Source: a virus. Taken from it: a stretch of 39,291 nucleotides of DNA. The DNA is taken from IMG/VR virus record IMGVR_UViG_3300009183_000175, positions 1-39,291 of that record; one strand, 5' to 3'. Under the pieces are notes generated by a model, which was given only the letters and a program-made list of their open reading frames with translations, ran no database searches and had not been told where the DNA came from. Below, in pieces: positions 16,043 through 37,685 of the stretch (position 1 is the first letter of the stretch; each line of letters begins with the position of its first letter). Both the position numbers and the translations under genes were made by a program.

Positions 16043-18172
16043 ATGGCAGTAACTAAACAACAAGAAAGACAGATGATTTTCACTACTAAATTAGTAGATG
16101 AAGCAACAGATAAAATAAACGATGGAGTAGTCGTTAAAAGATACCAAAATCCTTGGTTAAAAAGTGAGGTTGGTCTTCGAAGAGCGGGTGCCTCATTTAA
16201 GATGACACCTGATGAACAACAGGAGTATGTTAGATGTGCCTTAGATGTTCACTATTTCACTGAGAAATATTGTAAGGTTAAAACAGAGGATGGTTCTATT
16301 AATAATATTTTATTAAGAGATTATCAGAAAGAAATGCTTGATAACTTTGTTAATAATAGATTTAGTATTTTAATGGCATCTCGTCAGGTAGGTAAGACTA
16401 TCTCATCTTCTATTTTCATGTTACATACTATTCTATTTAATAATGATAAGAATATAATGATTGTTGCCAACAAAGGTGATACTGCTGTTGAAATTGTCGA
16501 TAAGATTAAATCTATCTACTCATTATTACCTTTCTTCTTAAAACCAGGTATTAAAACTTGGAATCAGAAGTCTTTAACATTTGAGAATGGTTGTAGAATT
16601 AAAACATCAGCTAGAACAAAGACTCCAGCTATCGGTTTTACGATTGACGTACTTTACTTAGATGAGTTTGCTCACATTCCATCAAATATTATTGAACCTT
16701 ACTATACTGCTGCTTTTCCAACCGTATCAGCCGTTCAAAATTCAAAGATTATTATTACATCTACACCAAATGGTATGAATTTATTTCATAGATTATTGAC
16801 AGATGCTGAGAGACCAGATGGAGATCCATTAAAGAATAACTATAAAGCGATGAGAGTTTATTGGTATCAAGTTCCTGGTCGATTCATAACCTATATTAGA
16901 TTAAACGCTCATAAAATGTATGAGTATGGTGTTACTAAAGAAGAGATATTTCAAGTAGTACAGGATAGATGGTCTCAACATACAAAACTTGAGATGAAGT
17001 ATATCACTGATAATATGAAAGATGTTATCTATGTTTATAATAATGATAAATGCACAGATGAAGAAGTTAAGAAAACAACTTTTATTGATAAGAATGGGTT
17101 TGAAGTTCCTATTTTAGCTATATCTGAAATGACAACTTGGAAAGAAGAGGCTATAAAAGATATCGGTGGCGAGGATGCCTTTAATCAAGAGTATGGGTTA
17201 AGATTTATTAATGCTTCCAAGTCTTTACTTAATGAGGCTATTATTGATGATTTGTTGAGAAATAAAAAGAACTATGTATTTGAAGAAATACAAGAATTTG
17301 ATAGAAAACTTAAATTTAGTTATAACGACTTAAAGTGGGTTGATGATGATGATTTATTTTTACCACTCAAAAGAAAAGATTATAAAATTGTTATTTCAGT
17401 TGATATATCTGAAGGTTTAGGTCAAGACTACTCTATAATAAACATTTTTAGAGTTTCTGAGAAACCGAAAGATCTCATAGAATCTCAAAAAGCGTCTTAT
17501 AAATCTATTGTTGATTTCTTTAGACTAGAACAAATTGGTATTTTCAGAAATAATTTTATTTCAGTTAAACAATTAGCTGAGTTACTTTATATGATCGTCT
17601 TTGAATACTTAAATCCAGAAAATATTAAAGTGGTAGTCGAGTTAAATAACTATGGTAATACTTTATTTGCTGAGTTACCACATGTTTTTGATGGTAATAA
17701 TAACTATGGTTCTTCGGTTTTTGTTAGATATAAACATAGAGCTGACGCAACTGAAGAAAAAATGGGTTTAAAGGTAGGTGAGAATAAAAATCTTATGGTT
17801 AAAGATTATCAAGACCTAATGCAAAGTAAATCATTTGTTATAAACAATGAAGATAATATCAGAGAAATAACAACTTTTGTCAAGCACACAACAACAGCCG
17901 GTAATACTAGATATGCGGCTGATGTTGGGAATGATGATAGTGTTATGACTATAGTTAATGCTACTACTATATTTAGTAGACATGAATTTTCTGAAATGGT
18001 AGAGGATTGGTCTAGTAAATTTGTTGATAAAGAATTTACAAACTATGTTCAAGAAAGTCTTAAAAATATGGACTATGTTGACGGAGTTGATTATGGACAA
18101 GTCCTGAAAATAAGAAAGCAACAAATGAATAGATATAAAGGTAGTCAGGGGAAAAACTGGTTTAATAGTTAA
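16043..18172 (+). CDS. 17: Terminase large subunit (T4 gp17-like)
   Basis: 709 aa packaging motor. ATPase: Walker A SRQVGKT at 113-119, Walker B VLYLDEF with D207/E208, coupling motif TSTPNG at about 239-244. RNase H-like nuclease: D454 in VISVDISEG, E533 in VVVELNNYG, D631/D632 in ADVGNDDS. These are the three acidic residues expected for a T4-type nuclease. It is about 100 residues longer than T4 gp17, the surplus lying between ATPase and nuclease (about 265-395). Its stop shares the palindrome TTAA (18169-18172) with the stop of the converging ClpS gene. Confidence 0.95.
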   Translation: MAVTKQQERQMIFTTKLVDEATDKINDGVVVKRYQNPWLKSEVGLRRAGASFKMTPDEQQEYVRCALDVHYFTEKYCKVKTEDGSINNILLRDYQKEMLDNFVNNRFSILMASRQVGKTISSSIFMLHTILFNNDKNIMIVANKGDTAVEIVDKIKSIYSLLPFFLKPGIKTWNQKSLTFENGCRIKTSARTKTPAIGFTIDVLYLDEFAHIPSNIIEPYYTAAFPTVSAVQNSKIIITSTPNGMNLFHRLLTDAERPDGDPLKNNYKAMRVYWYQVPGRFITYIRLNAHKMYEYGVTKEEIFQVVQDRWSQHTKLEMKYITDNMKDVIYVYNNDKCTDEEVKKTTFIDKNGFEVPILAISEMTTWKEEAIKDIGGEDAFNQEYGLRFINASKSLLNEAIIDDLLRNKKNYVFEEIQEFDRKLKFSYNDLKWVDDDDLFLPLKRKDYKIVISVDISEGLGQDYSIINIFRVSEKPKDLIESQKASYKSIVDFFRLEQIGIFRNNFISVKQLAELLYMIVFEYLNPENIKVVVELNNYGNTLFAELPHVFDGNNNYGSSVFVRYKHRADATEEKMGLKVGENKNLMVKDYQDLMQSKSFVINNEDNIREITTFVKHTTTAGNTRYAADVGNDDSVMTIVNATTIFSRHEFSEMVEDWSSKFVDKEFTNYVQESLKNMDYVDGVDYGQVLKIRKQQMNRYKGSQGKNWFNS

Positions 18173-18453
18173 TCATTAGACTCCATAGTTGCTGAAAGCC
18201 CAGCACCTCTTAGTTTATCTTTCATTGTTGAGATTGTTTCTAAATCTCCGTATTTAACATCACACTTTCCTCTATAGTGAATTATATGAGCACATTGATT
18301 AGCTTGTTCTAACTCGTGGTTACAAACTTTCATTAAACAAGTAATAACCCAATCAAATGTATTGTGATCATCATTGTGAAGAATTAACTTATAAGGTTTT
18401 GCTAAAATTTCTTGTACTTTCGATTTTGTTTTCTTTTTTGTAATTGTTGCCAT
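18169..18453 (-). CDS. clpS: ClpS-like adaptor of the Clp protease
   Basis: 94 aa, the usual ClpS length. A basic flexible N-terminus, then YKLILHNDDHNTFDWVITCL with the substrate-pocket motif N27-D28-D29-x-x-T32, and IIHYRGK with H59 equivalent to the second pocket histidine. The C-terminal GLSATME strand is also typical. ClpS binds proteins with N-end-rule destabilising residues and delivers them to ClpA/ClpC-ClpP. A phage copy could steer host proteolysis or speed turnover of processed phage proteins. It is 3 bases downstream of the HAD gene on the same strand, probably one transcript. All key residues are present, so it is likely functional. Confidence 0.88.
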   Translation of the reverse strand: MATITKKKTKSKVQEILAKPYKLILHNDDHNTFDWVITCLMKVCNHELEQANQCAHIIHYRGKCDVKYGDLETISTMKDKLRGAGLSATMESND

Positions 18454-20077: not shown

Positions 20078-20767
20078 ATGAAGCATATTAGAACATTTGA
20101 AACCTATCGTATTAAAAAGAACAGAGAGGAAATTATTAAAGAGTCTGTTTTTCAAGTAAACGATATCTATAAAGTTAAGACTATGATTGATATTCCTCAA
20201 TCATTAATTAATGCTTATGTGAAGAAAGTAAAAGATACTACTGGTAAAAACCTTCGTCAATTTTTTGGTGATGTTGACATCGCTGAAGAAATCGTTAAGT
20301 ATATCAATATGAACAACTTAGATGTTGAAAAAATTCCAGGTGGAGCATTAATGGGTGGTCAAGCACAAGGACAAACTCAAGCACAAGGACAACCACAAGT
20401 ACAAACTGAAGGTGAGGCTCAACCACAAGCTCAAACTCAACCACAGGCTCAACCAGAAACTCAGCCACAAGCTCAAGGTCAAGCACAACCACAAGGTCAA
20501 GCACAACCACAAGGTCAAGCACAACCACAAGGTCAAGCACAACCACAAGCTCAAGCACAACCACAAGCTCAAGCACAACCAGCTCAAGGACAAACTCAAG
20601 GTGAATTTGAAGAACCAGCTCAAGGTCAAGCACAAGGTCAAGCACAAGGTCAAGCACAAGGTCAAGCACAACCAGTTCAAGGACAAGCTCAACCAGCTCA
20701 AGGTGAAGAAGAGGAAGAAGAAGAGGAAGAAGAAACTGAAGAAGGTGAAGAAGAATTACCTCTTTAA
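20078..20767 (+). CDS. Gln-rich repeat protein with acidic tail, putative head-core protein
   Basis: 229 aa. The leader MKHIRTFETYRIKKN and a good (I/L)xE site, I20-K21-E22|S23, suggest head packaging. Residues 30-88 form a small helical domain (LINAYVKKVKDTTGKNLRQFFGDVDIAEEIVKYI). From about 90 to 205 the sequence is almost only Q, A, P and G in hexapeptide units (QGQAQP and variants), and it ends in about 20 residues that are mostly Glu. Long open frames on the opposite strand and in another plus frame here come from the repeat and are not genes. The role is unknown; the order globular-disordered-acidic resembles a scaffold/core component. Terminator follows. Confidence 0.75.
   Translation: MKHIRTFETYRIKKNREEIIKESVFQVNDIYKVKTMIDIPQSLINAYVKKVKDTTGKNLRQFFGDVDIAEEIVKYINMNNLDVEKIPGGALMGGQAQGQTQAQGQPQVQTEGEAQPQAQTQPQAQPETQPQAQGQAQPQGQAQPQGQAQPQGQAQPQAQAQPQAQAQPAQGQTQGEFEEPAQGQAQGQAQGQAQGQAQPVQGQAQPAQGEEEEEEEEEETEEGEEELPL
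20352..20690 (+). repeat. In-frame tandem repeat, 18-base unit and shorter variants
   Basis: Within the Gln-rich gene. The clearest run (about 20470-20560) repeats an 18-base unit coding QGQAQP four times. A second run (about 20620-20665) repeats a 12-base unit coding QGQA. Near identity at DNA level suggests recent expansion by slippage. Confidence 0.85.
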
Positions 20768-20790: not shown

Positions 20791-20820
20791 AAACCCATCA
20801 AGAAATTGATGGGTTTTTTA
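20791..20820 (+). terminator. Terminator with GAAA tetraloop
   Basis: AAACCCATCAA / TTGATGGGTTT stem closed by GAAA, followed by T3 and the next late promoter. Confidence 0.9.
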
Positions 20821-20821
20821 T

Positions 20822-20831
20822 TTAATATATA
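20822..20831 (+). promoter_or_regulatory. Late promoter box, exact TTAATATATA, near-leaderless
   Basis: The box ends at 20831 and the ATG begins at 20836. The predicted first transcribed base is 20837. If transcription began there, the in-frame ATG at 20851 would be used. Confidence 0.6.
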
Positions 20832-20835
20832 GATT

Positions 20836-21468
20836 ATGAGAAATAGAAATATGATAAAATTAAAATATATTAAGCTGTTTGAAAACTTTAGTAAAGAAGA
20901 TGTGGTAATTATCTCTAATTCATATTCAAAAGATGGATTTAAAATCTATTTTGATGATAAAAAATGGAAAAATAAATTACCTAAAGTTAATGGACAATAT
21001 TTATTTCATAACACTTCTAGTAAAAACTTAGATTCTATATTATCAAATGGACTAACTTTAAATAAATTAGGTATATCTGCTAGTAATCATATGGACTCAC
21101 ATTTTGGTTGGGATATTATATCACATCATAATGGTGATGTCTCACTAGTTGTTATTTTTAGTGATGATGAATATACTAAACTAAGAAGTGGTATAGAAAA
21201 TGGTATTAAATATAATTTTTATATTAAAGATGGTGTAATTCCATCTGAAAGAATTCTTGGATATATAGAAATTCCAAATACTAACGACGGAAAACACAAT
21301 GAAAGTTTGGTATTCTATCCTAATGATAAATTTAACCTAAATGTAAAACTAAATATTGAAAAGGAAAAAATTAATGTAGATGATGATGTTTTTGGTGTTG
21401 TAAGGAATCGAACTAACGATGGAGAAATTGATTCTGATATAATTGATTTTGGAAGAGATTGGGATTAA
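20836..21468 (+). CDS. ADP-ribosyltransferase-like protein with capsid-targeting-like N-terminus
   Basis: 210 aa (205 from the internal ATG at 20851, where the tag MIKLKYIKLFE|N begins, with L14-F15-E16|N17 as a good prohead-protease site). The body has YLFHNTSSKNLDSILSNGL (about 55-73), the strand-helix entry of the ART fold (H-x-T/S ... I-L-x-x-G-L, as in DarT and Tpt1-like proteins). DGVIPSERILGYIEI (about 137-151) resembles a later ART strand region. I cannot point with certainty to the catalytic Glu. The tag plus ART arrangement recalls T4 Alt, which is packaged, trimmed by gp21 and injected to ADP-ribosylate host RNA polymerase. Function here is a hypothesis. Confidence 0.6.
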   Translation: MRNRNMIKLKYIKLFENFSKEDVVIISNSYSKDGFKIYFDDKKWKNKLPKVNGQYLFHNTSSKNLDSILSNGLTLNKLGISASNHMDSHFGWDIISHHNGDVSLVVIFSDDEYTKLRSGIENGIKYNFYIKDGVIPSERILGYIEIPNTNDGKHNESLVFYPNDKFNLNVKLNIEKEKINVDDDVFGVVRNRTNDGEIDSDIIDFGRDWD

Positions 21469-21482
21469 AAATAAATTTTATT

Positions 21483-21492
21483 TTTATATATA
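21483..21492 (+). promoter_or_regulatory. Late promoter box, near-leaderless
   Basis: TTTATATATA ends at 21492 and the ATG begins at 21497. Confidence 0.55.
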
Positions 21493-21496
21493 GTAT

Positions 21497-22108
21497 ATGA
21501 AATTTCTTAAAACATTTGAAAGTTATAACTCCGATACTCTTATAGTAGTTGATGTTCAGAAGTCATTTAAAAAGTATTTCTCTGAGATGTATTTAAATGA
21601 ACTTAAAAAGTACTGTAAAAACTTTCAAAATGTTTATCAACTTTGGGACAACCACATCGATGGTAAAAATGTAGATAAAGATTATTTATATGATGAAACT
21701 CCAGAGATTCCAATCCATAAAGACCTTTATCATTTTACTAATCAAAAAGACCTTATAGAAAAAAGATACAACTATGATGTAGATGCTGATTTTTATAAAA
21801 AGATTTTAGATAAAGAAGTTTATAACAAAGTTAGTAAAATGGAAGAAGAGAAAACTTTGAAAAAAGGTGATATCTTCAATACTAAAGAAGGAACTATTAT
21901 TACTTTTATTAATAACAACCACGTTTGGTTTCATTGTCCTATTAAATTGTATGAACTACTTAAATCATTAAAAGGTAGAGAAGTAGTTATTGTTGGTGGT
22001 GCTGATTCTGAATGTTTGGAAGATGTAGTTACAACTGCTGAAAGTTTAGGAGTTAAAATTAAAAGAGATTATAAGTATATTTATACTGCTAGTAGTTGTC
22101 CTATTTAA
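21497..22108 (+). CDS. Isochorismatase/nicotinamidase-like hydrolase with tag-like N-terminus
   Basis: 203 aa. After MKFLKTFESYNS comes TLIVVDVQKSF with D19, the nucleophile-activating Asp of the cysteine-hydrolase (isochorismatase) fold. REVVIVGGADSECLEDVVTTAESLGVKI (about 161-188) matches the catalytic Cys strand-helix, with C173. The usual catalytic Lys is not obvious and the middle is longer and more charged than in the family. The tag resembles those of neighbours but ends TFE|S, which is not a perfect (I/L)xE site. If active on nicotinamide it would complement the ART-like neighbour, whose reaction releases nicotinamide. That link is speculative. Confidence 0.55.
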   Translation: MKFLKTFESYNSDTLIVVDVQKSFKKYFSEMYLNELKKYCKNFQNVYQLWDNHIDGKNVDKDYLYDETPEIPIHKDLYHFTNQKDLIEKRYNYDVDADFYKKILDKEVYNKVSKMEEEKTLKKGDIFNTKEGTIITFINNNHVWFHCPIKLYELLKSLKGREVVIVGGADSECLEDVVTTAESLGVKIKRDYKYIYTASSCPI

Positions 22109-26803: not shown

Positions 26804-27892
26804 TTAAGCTTCTGTTTCAACTTCACTATATACCGTCTCTAACATTCTTTCTGAAACTAAATAAGGATCACAATTTGATGCTGGTCTTCTATCTTCAAAG
26901 TAACCTTTCTTTTCAATTATAGCTTGTGCTGGAATTCTAATAGAAGTATCTCTTGTAGAAAATCCATAACTGAAATCGTTAATACTTGATGTTTCGTGTT
27001 GACCTGTTAATCTTTCTTCGTTGAATAAACCATAGATTTCAATGTGTTCTTTTTGAAATCTTTTTAACTTAGACATTGTTTCTTTGATTATATCTAACCC
27101 ACCTTCTTCTCTCATCTCTTTAGTTGAAAAGTTAACATGACATCCAGTTCCGTTCCAGTCTCCTTTTAATGGTTTTGGATGTAATGAAACATTAGTATCA
27201 TACTTTTCAGCAACTCTTTGTAGTAAATATCTAGAAACCCATAATTGGTCAGATCCATTTAATGATGTAACTGGACCAATTTGATATTCCCATTGTCCAA
27301 GTAATACTTCAGCGTTTATTCCTGATATATCTAAACCTACTTCTATACACATATCCATATGTTCTTCAACTATATTACGACCAATAACCGTATCAGCTCC
27401 GATTCCACAATAATAATCACCTTGTGGTCTAGGCCCTTTTGATGAGTCTAATCCAAATCCTAAAGGTAATCCAATTCCTTCTCCAAATGGCATATGTGGT
27501 TTGTGAGTAAGAGTATATTCTTGTTCCCATCCAAACCAAGGTTGTTCATTTTTTTCAATTGTCTCAGTTAATCCTAACTGATTCATTTTTTGCTCTAACT
27601 TATTTCGGTGATTAGTTATGTGTGGAGTTCCGTCTGGGTTTAATACTTCACAAAATACTAATCTATGTGGGTATCCTCTGAATGGATCTTTTGTTATAAA
27701 GACCGGTTTTAAAAGACAATCTGTATTTTTGCCTCTTCCTGATTCTGCTTGTAATGTTGAACTTCCATCGAAAGACCACATAGAGTAATCTTTTGCTAAA
27801 AGTGTGTCTGCTTTTTCGACAATTTTAGTTTTACTTCTTAATTGTTGTGGCTCTGAACCATCTAACCAAATGTATTCTAATTTTACGCTCAT
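26804..27892 (-). CDS. glnA: Glutamine synthetase, type II (GSII)
   Basis: 362 aa, typical GSII length (GSI is about 450-470). Beta-grasp start LEYIWLDGSEPQQLRSKTKI, then MWSFDGSSTLQA, DPFRGYPHRLVFCEV, and the catalytic domain with PWFGWEQEYTL, GLDISGINAEVLLGQWEYQIGP, LHPKPLKGDWNGTGCHVNFS, NEERLTGQHETSS and the R-binding STRDTSIRIPAQ ... YFEDRRPASNCDPY. All metal, ATP and glutamate motifs seem intact. It makes glutamine from glutamate, ammonia and ATP, and could support nucleotide synthesis in infection. Unusual for a phage; probably taken from a Bacteroidota-like host, where GSII occurs. A palindrome lies in its upstream region. Confidence 0.93.
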   Translation of the reverse strand: MSVKLEYIWLDGSEPQQLRSKTKIVEKADTLLAKDYSMWSFDGSSTLQAESGRGKNTDCLLKPVFITKDPFRGYPHRLVFCEVLNPDGTPHITNHRNKLEQKMNQLGLTETIEKNEQPWFGWEQEYTLTHKPHMPFGEGIGLPLGFGLDSSKGPRPQGDYYCGIGADTVIGRNIVEEHMDMCIEVGLDISGINAEVLLGQWEYQIGPVTSLNGSDQLWVSRYLLQRVAEKYDTNVSLHPKPLKGDWNGTGCHVNFSTKEMREEGGLDIIKETMSKLKRFQKEHIEIYGLFNEERLTGQHETSSINDFSYGFSTRDTSIRIPAQAIIEKKGYFEDRRPASNCDPYLVSERMLETVYSEVETEA

Positions 27893-35567: not shown

Positions 35568-37685
35568 ATGAAACCAGTTTTAATTGTAGAAAATTCGACA
35601 AATGCTCTTATAAGAGAAAGTGTCAATGGTAAGAAAGATTATATACTTGGTGGTACATTCACAGAATTCGGTGTTAAAAATCGTAATGAAAGAATTTATA
35701 CTGCTGACAAATTTCTTCCTGCTTTAAATGAGATGAATGATAGAATGAGTAGTCTAGGTGCTGTTTATGGTGAGTTTGATCACCCAGATGTTTTTGATAC
35801 ATCTCTTTCTAGAGCTTCTCACATAATTACAAAAGCAAATTATGTAAAAGAATCTAACCTTGTTAATGGTGAAATTAGACTTCTTAGTACCTATTGGGGT
35901 AAAGAAGCTAAAGCATTGGTTGATGATGGTTGTCCAGTTTTTGTTTCTTCAAGAGCGGCTGGTATTACTGAATCAGATGGTACTGTTTCCTTAAAGAAAT
36001 TATTTACTTATGATATAGTAGCTGATCCAGGATTTGCATCGGCTAAGATGAGCGTGAAGGTTCTTAACGAGTCTTTGGGTTATAATCAAAACTCCAACTT
36101 TAGGATATATGAAATGTCCGATGAGTCCAAAATAAATCAACTATTTGATATGAACAAAAATGAATTTGTTACTAAACAACAGTTAACTGACTATTCTCAA
36201 TATTTAGTTAAAGAATTAGCTTCTACTAAGAAAGAAGTTAAAGGTGCAATTTCTAAAGGTAACTTAAGTCCTAAAAAACTTGAACAACTTTTAGAGTATT
36301 ACGATGAGTTAAATAACACAAATTCTCAAGTTGTTAAGTACTTGGATTATTTGGCTGAGAAAGTTCAAATTATGGTTAATGAGAATAAGTCTTTAAAAGA
36401 GACTACAAATAAACTTATTAAACATAATGACTATTTAGCCGAAAATCTTGAAAAGGCTGTTAACTACTCTGAGTATTTGGCTGAAAACTTAGATAAAAAT
36501 ATCGAGTATTCAGAATATTTAGCTGAAAATCTTGATAAAAATATTTCTTATTCTGAGTATATCGCTGAGAATTTGGATAAAAACATTTCTTATTCTGAGT
36601 ATTTAGCTGAGAATTTGGATAAAAACATTGAGTATTCAGAATATTTAGCTGAAAACTTAGACAAAAACATCGCTTACTCTGAGTACATCGCTGAAAACTT
36701 AGATAAAAGTATCGCTTACGGTGAGTACATCGCTGAACACGTTGATAATTCAATCGCTTATTCAGAATATTTAGCTGAACACGTTGAAGGTAACATCGCT
36801 TACTCTGAGTACATCGCTGAACATTTAGATGATAATATCGCTTATTCAGAATATATCGCTGAAAACTTAGACAAATCAATTTCTTACCAAGGATTAATCG
36901 TTGAAAAATTAAATTCTGGTAAATTAAATGAAGCATTTGGTGGAGAAGAAGAAGCTTTCCCTTCATTACAAGCTGCTGGTTTCGAAGATGCTGAAGAAGA
37001 AGATGAAAATTGTGGACCTAACGCTACTGAAGAAGATGAAGAAGAATACAATGGTGTTCCTTCAGCTCACGAAGAAGAGGCTTACAATTCTGAAGAAAAT
37101 GAAGAAAATGAAGACGAAGATGAAGAAGAAGTTCATTCACATGACTATGAAGTTGGTGGACATGAAGATTCTGAATTATCTGAATCAATTAATAAATTAA
37201 TAGAAGAAGCTAAAAAACGTAAAGTTTCTGAATCTACAGACTTGAATTTCTTAAAATTCTTAAACAAGTCACAAGTAGATAGCTTTTATGCACTATCAGA
37301 CGAAGAACAGGAATCTGTTAAACTTCACATAAACGAGAGAAGTTATTTCACATCCAAAGATGTATTAGGTCTAATTGCTGAAGCATTATCAACAAAGAAT
37401 GAAACACTTGAAGAAAGAGTAATCAGATTAATGCCTGAAAACACTAAGGCTATCTGGAGTCAAATGAACGAATCTGCTAAAAAATCTATCTTATCACAAG
37501 CTAGACTTTACCCAGCTGAAGTTTTAATGAACGAATCTCAAGTTGAGCACTTCTGGGCAACTAGAAAGCTTAAAACAAATGAATCTGTAACTAAAAAGTT
37601 AGTATCACACGAAAGTCTTATACAAGAAGATAAACTTTCTGATAATGATGTTACTGCTATTATGGAAAGATTCAAAAACATCTAA
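35568..37685 (+). CDS. 21: Prohead protease fused to scaffold (T4 gp21 + gp22)
   Basis: 705 aa. Residues 1-168 are the serine protease: FTEFGVKNRNERIYTADKFL, H72 in YGEFDHPD, VFVSSRAAG with S127/S128 as nucleophile candidates, VADPGFASAKM. Predicted self-cleavage sites are I15-R-E17|S18, L166-N-E168|S169 and L453-N-E455|A456. The scaffold part has eleven 14-residue helical repeats (286-439), an acidic stretch (about 456-545) and a helical C-terminal domain. In T4 the two functions are separate genes. The protease frees scaffold fragments and trims capsid and tagged proteins. It precedes the capsid gene, as in T4. Confidence 0.9.
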   Translation: MKPVLIVENSTNALIRESVNGKKDYILGGTFTEFGVKNRNERIYTADKFLPALNEMNDRMSSLGAVYGEFDHPDVFDTSLSRASHIITKANYVKESNLVNGEIRLLSTYWGKEAKALVDDGCPVFVSSRAAGITESDGTVSLKKLFTYDIVADPGFASAKMSVKVLNESLGYNQNSNFRIYEMSDESKINQLFDMNKNEFVTKQQLTDYSQYLVKELASTKKEVKGAISKGNLSPKKLEQLLEYYDELNNTNSQVVKYLDYLAEKVQIMVNENKSLKETTNKLIKHNDYLAENLEKAVNYSEYLAENLDKNIEYSEYLAENLDKNISYSEYIAENLDKNISYSEYLAENLDKNIEYSEYLAENLDKNIAYSEYIAENLDKSIAYGEYIAEHVDNSIAYSEYLAEHVEGNIAYSEYIAEHLDDNIAYSEYIAENLDKSISYQGLIVEKLNSGKLNEAFGGEEEAFPSLQAAGFEDAEEEDENCGPNATEEDEEEYNGVPSAHEEEAYNSEENEENEDEDEEEVHSHDYEVGGHEDSELSESINKLIEEAKKRKVSESTDLNFLKFLNKSQVDSFYALSDEEQESVKLHINERSYFTSKDVLGLIAEALSTKNETLEERVIRLMPENTKAIWSQMNESAKKSILSQARLYPAEVLMNESQVEHFWATRKLKTNESVTKKLVSHESLIQEDKLSDNDVTAIMERFKNI
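36423..36884 (+). repeat. Eleven 42-base repeats in the scaffold domain
   Basis: Each unit codes YSEY(L/I)AENLDKNI(E/S/A) or a close variant. The first unit is degenerate (HNDYLAENLEKAVN), and a further degenerate unit follows the last. Synonymous codons differ among units, so the repeat is old and kept by selection on protein, unlike the Gln-rich repeat at 20.4 kb. Confidence 0.9.

Follow-up and report, generated by a model that had tools for sequence, protein, structure and literature searches.

Does this locus encode a pair of proteins that a phage loads into its head to act together on NAD in the next cell? The stretch of viral DNA that we analyzed (39,291 nucleotides, hereafter the window; IMG/VR record IMGVR_UViG_3300009183_000175) carries, on the plus strand, a gene for a tagged ART-like protein of 210 aa (gene 1, 20836..21468; 205 aa if read from 20851) and, next to it, a gene for a tagged cysteine-hydrolase-like protein of 203 aa (gene 2, 21497..22108). 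The original prediction took the two for a possible NAD-centered pair, in which an injected ART frees nicotinamide, an injected nicotinamidase removes it, and NAD is recycled. We found that the observation behind this prediction was largely right, that the pair is not the favored reading, and that the tag system as a whole is of greater interest.

The gene content of the window is of T4 type (terminase, portal, tail sheath, gp15-like, clamp loader, and head maturation protease), and its source is a giant Mahaphage-type phage. Gene 2 is 71%, 70%, and 32% identical to its counterparts in three complete “uncultured phage” genomes of 634 kb (LR745206), 642 kb (LR756502), and 735 kb (LR756501), respectively. 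A survey of huge phages classes complete genomes of these sizes as Mahaphages and predicts Bacteroidetes hosts for them (PMC7162821). Contig 3300027759_004078 equals the window over 11,737 bp at 100% identity, and its copy of gene 1 is therefore not independent. Two further genes of the window may be recorded in their own right. A glutamine synthetase of the eukaryote-like GSII type (26804-27892, minus strand; PDB E=3e-97) lies within the structural-gene region and has a GSII-type equivalent at the same place in LR745206 (189663-190739). A ClpS-like N-end rule adaptor gene (18169-18453, minus strand; PDB E=2e-7) adjoins the terminase gene and is kept in LR745206 and LR756502.

Each of the two genes has its own promoter-like element. 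A late-promoter-like TATATA (20826..20831, plus strand) precedes gene 1, and the element TATATATA (21485..21492, plus strand; -12/-10) precedes gene 2, with the same spacing upstream of most homologues; TATATA thus stands at -10 of both genes. Across the LR745206 genome, TATATA shows a main positional peak at -10 and another at -28 to -25, and it occurs within 30 nt of 37.6% of the genes with clean upstream DNA, compared with 17/408 (4%) of convergent-intergenic 30-mers. The near-leaderless late-type promoters that had been proposed for both genes are therefore borne out. The start of gene 1 is ambiguous, since translation from 20836 would put the promoter at -10, and translation from the inner Met at 20851 would put it at -25 and yield the tag, discussed below, in its canonical 11-residue register.

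By its distribution among viral sequences, gene 2 is a core protein of Mahaphage-type phages: one scan found the family in 242 viral contigs, and distant members occur in other large contigs. Across 22 gene 2 sequences (34-89% identity), Asp19 (in DVQ; 21551..21553, 22/22), Asp51, Lys89 (21761..21763), and Cys173 (in GGADSEC; 22013..22015; all codons on the plus strand) are invariant. Asp19, Lys89, and Cys173 follow the order of the catalytic triad in isochorismatase-superfamily cysteine hydrolases such as PncA, namely Asp (DVQ), Lys, and Cys (G-x(4)-C at a helix start). In the AF2 model (pLDDT 79, pTM 0.79), Asp19 falls just after strand 1, Lys89 ends a central strand (predicted strand 3), and Cys173 lies near the start of a helix that follows a later strand. 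Isochorismatases place their Asp, Lys, and Cys on these same elements.

Profile comparisons show a remote similarity to the same superfamily. An hhalign comparison gave E=4e-4, a profile search of the PDB placed yeast nicotinamidase second (E=0.18) with the Asp and Cys regions collinear, and, when a nicotinamidase profile was used, five sequences of the family outscored all LR745206 proteins scored and all shuffles. PF00857 matched 4/22 members weakly, with E of at least 0.09. Unlike isochorismatases and PncA, however, gene 2 has no Pfam match above the cut-off, contains an extra beta hairpin between the Lys and the Cys, and does not conserve the metal-site His; the broadest gene 2 profile (A8) returned no isochorismatase in its PDB list. 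There was no match in PADLOC, nothing meaningful in NCBIfam, and no relative in bacterial genome contigs. Weak matches to NIP7 (Pfam), RbfA (NCBIfam), and others were judged to be chance. HMMER paired the Lys of KKGD with the catalytic Lys, but we discounted that residue because it varies within the family and Lys89 does not. Altogether, these results suggest that gene 2 probably is a remote member of the isochorismatase/cysteine-hydrolase superfamily.

The original prediction had gone further and read the Asp and Cys as those of an isochorismatase/nicotinamidase fold. The residues hold, with Lys89 added to them; the fold was not recovered, as Foldseek gave no significant match for the model (TM up to about 0.33 for the top PDB matches and 0.40 in BFVD), its best results being weak and Rossmann-like. 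Of the nicotinamidase metal site, Asp-x-His...His, the family keeps Asp51 throughout; His53 is present in the window's own subset, but homologues of the 735-kb type and most of the distant ones have another residue there, usually Asn. Because distant members lack this metal ligand and Foldseek gave a negative result, a nicotinamidase assignment is not supported. The Rossmann-like matches would also suit a virion assembly or structural protein without hydrolase activity, in which Asp, Lys, and Cys have structural roles. Such a role would be in line with a core gene that adjoins structural genes, and with the equal invariance of N140, H142, W144, and E172 in the 22 sequences. We consider it somewhat unlikely, given that the three invariant residues occur in the correct order and on the correct predicted elements and that sequence profiles carry the remote isochorismatase signal.

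The evidence on gene 1 is more limited. Its ART signal is weak and restricted to a Tpt1-like first motif, so that any NAD site in it is putative. The region concerned, YLFHNTSSKNLDSILSNGLT (20998..21057, plus strand; His58 at 21007-21009), contains HNTS...ILSNGL and matches Pfam PF00644 (PARP) over residues 44-79 with E=6.4e-4, which is above chance yet weak and below the curated cut-off. It resembles the first motif shared by the Tpt1/KptA RNA 2'-phosphotransferases and the PARP catalytic domain (xxYHGTxxxNxxxILxxGL-like), differs from the H-G-[ST] type by having HN in place of HG, and is the only part of the protein in which the likeness is seen. A candidate third motif, HNESLVFYP (E156), was proposed by eye only and resembles PARP. 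The single-sequence AF2 model has a pLDDT of 31. Apart from the identical contig, no relative of gene 1 was found by tblastn against phages and plasmids, by pattern scans of viral and genome contigs, or in 28 sibling records; one plasmid tblastn match (E=1) was judged to be chance.

Gene 1 had been said to show the same combination as T4 Alt, and the combination itself, a tag plus an ART-like motif, stands. The motif, however, is of the His type and thus on the PARP/Tpt1 side, whereas Alt belongs to the clade defined by an R-S-E active site (PMC9503650); gene 1 has no Pfam match to Alt or the R-S-E families and no PHROG match, and so falls outside the T4 Alt/VIP2 group. With the head-packaged phage ARTs in general (T4 Alt/VIP2, N4-like, and PART families; PMC9503650), gene 1 shares an ART-like domain, a head-targeting-like leader, and a position near packaging genes. 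Unlike them, it is a short protein of 205-210 aa for which no relatives were detected.

Instead of a protein-modifying ART, gene 1 might be a Tpt1/KptA-like enzyme of RNA 2'-phosphate repair or an ART that has decayed. When a profile built from gene 1 and two ART-like proteins of contig L154 (A6) was compared with the PDB, Tpt1 structures ranked first (E=0.02) and 8/9 of the matched sequences were Tpt1 2'-phosphotransferases. In addition, NCBIfam PRK00819 gave a weak 22-residue match (E=0.12) over the PF00644 stretch. These matches span the shared first motif only, and the N-terminal part of Tpt1 is unmatched, so that there is no family-level match over both Tpt1/KptA domains. Moreover, a bona fide-looking Tpt1 of this phage group (L200) is untagged and differs in appearance, and the possible third-motif Glu, seen by eye, is PARP-like. 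We regard the Tpt1/KptA or decayed-ART identity as unlikely.

The tags connect these two proteins with many others. Both proteins open with a short basic/aromatic leader that ends in Glu, namely MIKLKYIKLFE/N in gene 1 (20851..20883, plus strand) and MKFLKTFE/S in gene 2 (21497..21520, plus strand), where the slash marks the predicted cleavage site. Among the 920 genes of LR745206, Phe-Glu is found at residues 7-8 in 29 cases, at residues 10-11 in another 29, and at neighboring positions in about three, an approximately ten-fold enrichment confined to exactly two registers. The tag pattern is found at 72/920 gene starts compared with 21/2887 internal Met codons, which served as the control (0.7%; p=8e-28), and the T4-style spelling MxKKYxxFIxE (also written MIKKYxxFIxE) is found at 20/920 compared with 1/2887. 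The proposal of tag-like leaders on both genes is thus confirmed at a frequency above chance, and, as in T4, a peptide of about 10 residues is common to the N-termini of unrelated proteins.

In T4, the first 10 residues of IPIII suffice for capsid targeting, and the protease gp21 cleaves after L/I-X-E (PMC9026906). Leu or Ile occupies P3 in 18/19 long-register tags, in keeping with this rule, and the LFE/N of gene 1 fits it. Most short-register tags have Thr or Lys at P3, among them gene 2, whose TFE/S misses the rule because its P3 is Thr. Distant gene 2 homologues satisfy the rule (INE, LNE): those at 34-39% identity keep T4-style leaders (EFSINE/N, EFTLNE/K, and NFAINE/N, or MKILTLKEFSINE/N-type), and the homologues of contigs L194 and L203 are untagged. 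A major capsid protein starts with SINE/N. Downstream in the window, a gene on the plus strand (35568..37685; phrog_207 head maturation protease, E=2e-30) encodes a fusion of a prohead protease and a repetitive scaffold that bears YLAE/N and YIAE/N repeats, a candidate for the enzyme that removes the tags.

The likeness to the T4 capsid-targeting sequences (IPI-III and Alt, processed by gp21) therefore lies in a short peptide at the N-terminus that contains aromatic residues and a cut site at Glu, in variable cargo, and in a protease/scaffold, portal, terminase, and sheath of T4 type. The differences are that dozens of genes are tagged here instead of T4's handful, that a second, shorter register without L/I at P3 exists (MKYLKTFE/S), that the protease and scaffold are fused, and that cleavage of the tag is a prediction from sequence. 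Among the tagged proteins of LR745206 are a T4-type RNA ligase, a 2H enzyme, and Nudix-like proteins (L179:10485-11744, L178:8260-9573, L159:10482-11036, and L156:18783-19247), possibly injected RNA-repair or early counter-defense enzymes. A NADAR match among the tagged proteins was a false positive, as the tag pattern had picked up FEGRWRFLSNF, the NADAR motif itself.

The same leader might instead direct proteins elsewhere, such as to the membrane or a replication compartment, or aid the translation of near-leaderless mRNAs. About 8-10% of all genes carry it, which exceeds the T4 internal proteins in PMC9026906, many short-register tags miss the L/I-X-E rule, and TATATA is commoner before tagged genes (21/28 vs 112/326, p=5e-5). 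On the other hand, the promoter is absent from some tagged genes, and the residue code (Lys, aromatics, and Glu in a fixed register) lies at the protein level and resembles T4 capsid-targeting peptides. The leader is also kept in gene 2 homologues though its spelling changes, and the phage encodes a protease/scaffold of T4 type. A role other than head targeting thus appears improbable to us, and the tags of gene 1 and gene 2 probably load both proteins into the virus head.

The region upstream of gene 2 differs among relatives. On its left lies the gene of a tagged, conserved protein (20078..20767, plus strand), which combines a conserved N-terminal domain with a tail of Gln-rich repeats whose length varies among relatives (about 174-251 aa for the whole protein). 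An intrinsic-terminator-like hairpin (AAACCCATC...GATGGGTTTTTT; 20791..20819, plus strand) closes this Gln-rich gene; in relatives with nothing inserted, it stands directly 5' of gene 2 and marks the left edge of an insertion slot. Of 50 distinct slots compared, 33 are empty and 17 are occupied, 14 of the latter by genes with a tag-like start. The contents comprise eight tagged HExxH proteins that are metallopeptidase-like (DUF6782, E=5e-4; motif HESCHMDQW; L031, L034, L044, L045, L054, L060, L067, and L145), with a reading frame that runs up to or into the start of gene 2; three small tagged proteins of the DUF551 kind (tested on one, E=2e-10); two other tagged proteins; three untagged HNH-like genes; and a single ART, that of the window. 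As read from these sequences, what adjoins the core gene is a hotspot of effector type and not the other half of a fixed pair. Elsewhere near gene 2, a tagged SET-domain protein (L074:20650-21093; PF00856, E=2e-11) directly follows it in LR756502, and a tagged DeoC/aldolase-family protein (L194:4090-4950; PF01791, E=4e-14) lies just upstream of an untagged homologue.

One contig of the 735-kb type holds two different tagged ART-like proteins (L154:6609-7034 and L154:10722-11762), one of which (PF00644, E=1.4e-3) is encoded 2 bp downstream of a gene 2 homologue, with the second, ART/Tpt1-like, about 4 kb further on. A functional link between ART-like proteins and gene 2 is therefore possible. 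PF00644 matched four times among 69 records, two of the matches adjoining gene 2; roughly counted, the chance of at least one such adjacency among the three matches that lie outside the window is p ~0.04, which is marginal. In the complete huge phages surveyed for NAD salvage genes (records L077, L078, L079, and L080), LR756501 encodes PncA, PncB, and a NadR-like protein, and LR745206 and LR756502 encode NadV and a Nudix/NadM-like protein. Related huge phages thus encode salvage enzymes of the kind known from phage NAD salvage and reconstitution (NadV-NadM, NadR, and NARP1/2), but these belong to families other than gene 2 and lie far from it, with no link to it. A survey of viral NAD and ADP-ribose systems finds packaged ARTs frequent in myoviruses and mentions neither nicotinamidase nor isochorismatase (PMC9503650). 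An injected ART-nicotinamidase pair, for which the adjacency, the two tags, the separate promoters, and the L154 arrangement speak, is very improbable, since an ART occupies only 1/50 slots and the search of other close relatives turned up none, gene 2 is core and in nearly all relatives has no ART with it, the putative DxH site does not conserve its His53, and the canonical salvage genes are located elsewhere.

The reading that we favor, at somewhat better than even confidence, is that gene 1 encodes accessory cargo of the head and sits in a hotspot, that gene 2 encodes a core, head-packaged Asp-Lys-Cys hydrolase, and that both proteins are injected. Gene 1 would be one of several alternative accessory genes between the Gln-rich virion-region protein and gene 2, and both genes would be expressed late from their own near-leaderless TATATA promoters. 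Their N-terminal tags of 8-11 residues would bring the proteins into the prohead core, a T4-gp21-like protease would cleave after the tag Glu, and the proteins would reach the next cell along with the DNA. There, gene 1 may carry out an NAD-dependent modification of a host macromolecule or act as an NADase, and gene 2 may act as an isochorismatase-superfamily Asp-Lys-Cys hydrolase whose substrate is a small metabolite, amide-like or otherwise, and probably other than nicotinamide.

More tentatively, and short of an even chance in our estimate, Mahaphage-type phages may load tens of proteins (RNA ligase, 2H, Nudix, ART-like, SET, and metallopeptidase-like) through one N-terminal peptide code with DNA-coupled delivery, the conserved Asp-Lys-Cys hydrolase being near-constant and flanked by exchangeable effector slots. 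The ART-nicotinamidase idea would matter less and is not favored. Should the tag prove to be a head-targeting code, sequence alone would suffice to predict which proteins the largest known phages inject, and the set that a huge phage imports before any gene expression would become testable. The finding also points to a conserved, uncharacterized hydrolase-like protein and to effector hotspots that may be mined for counter-defense genes.
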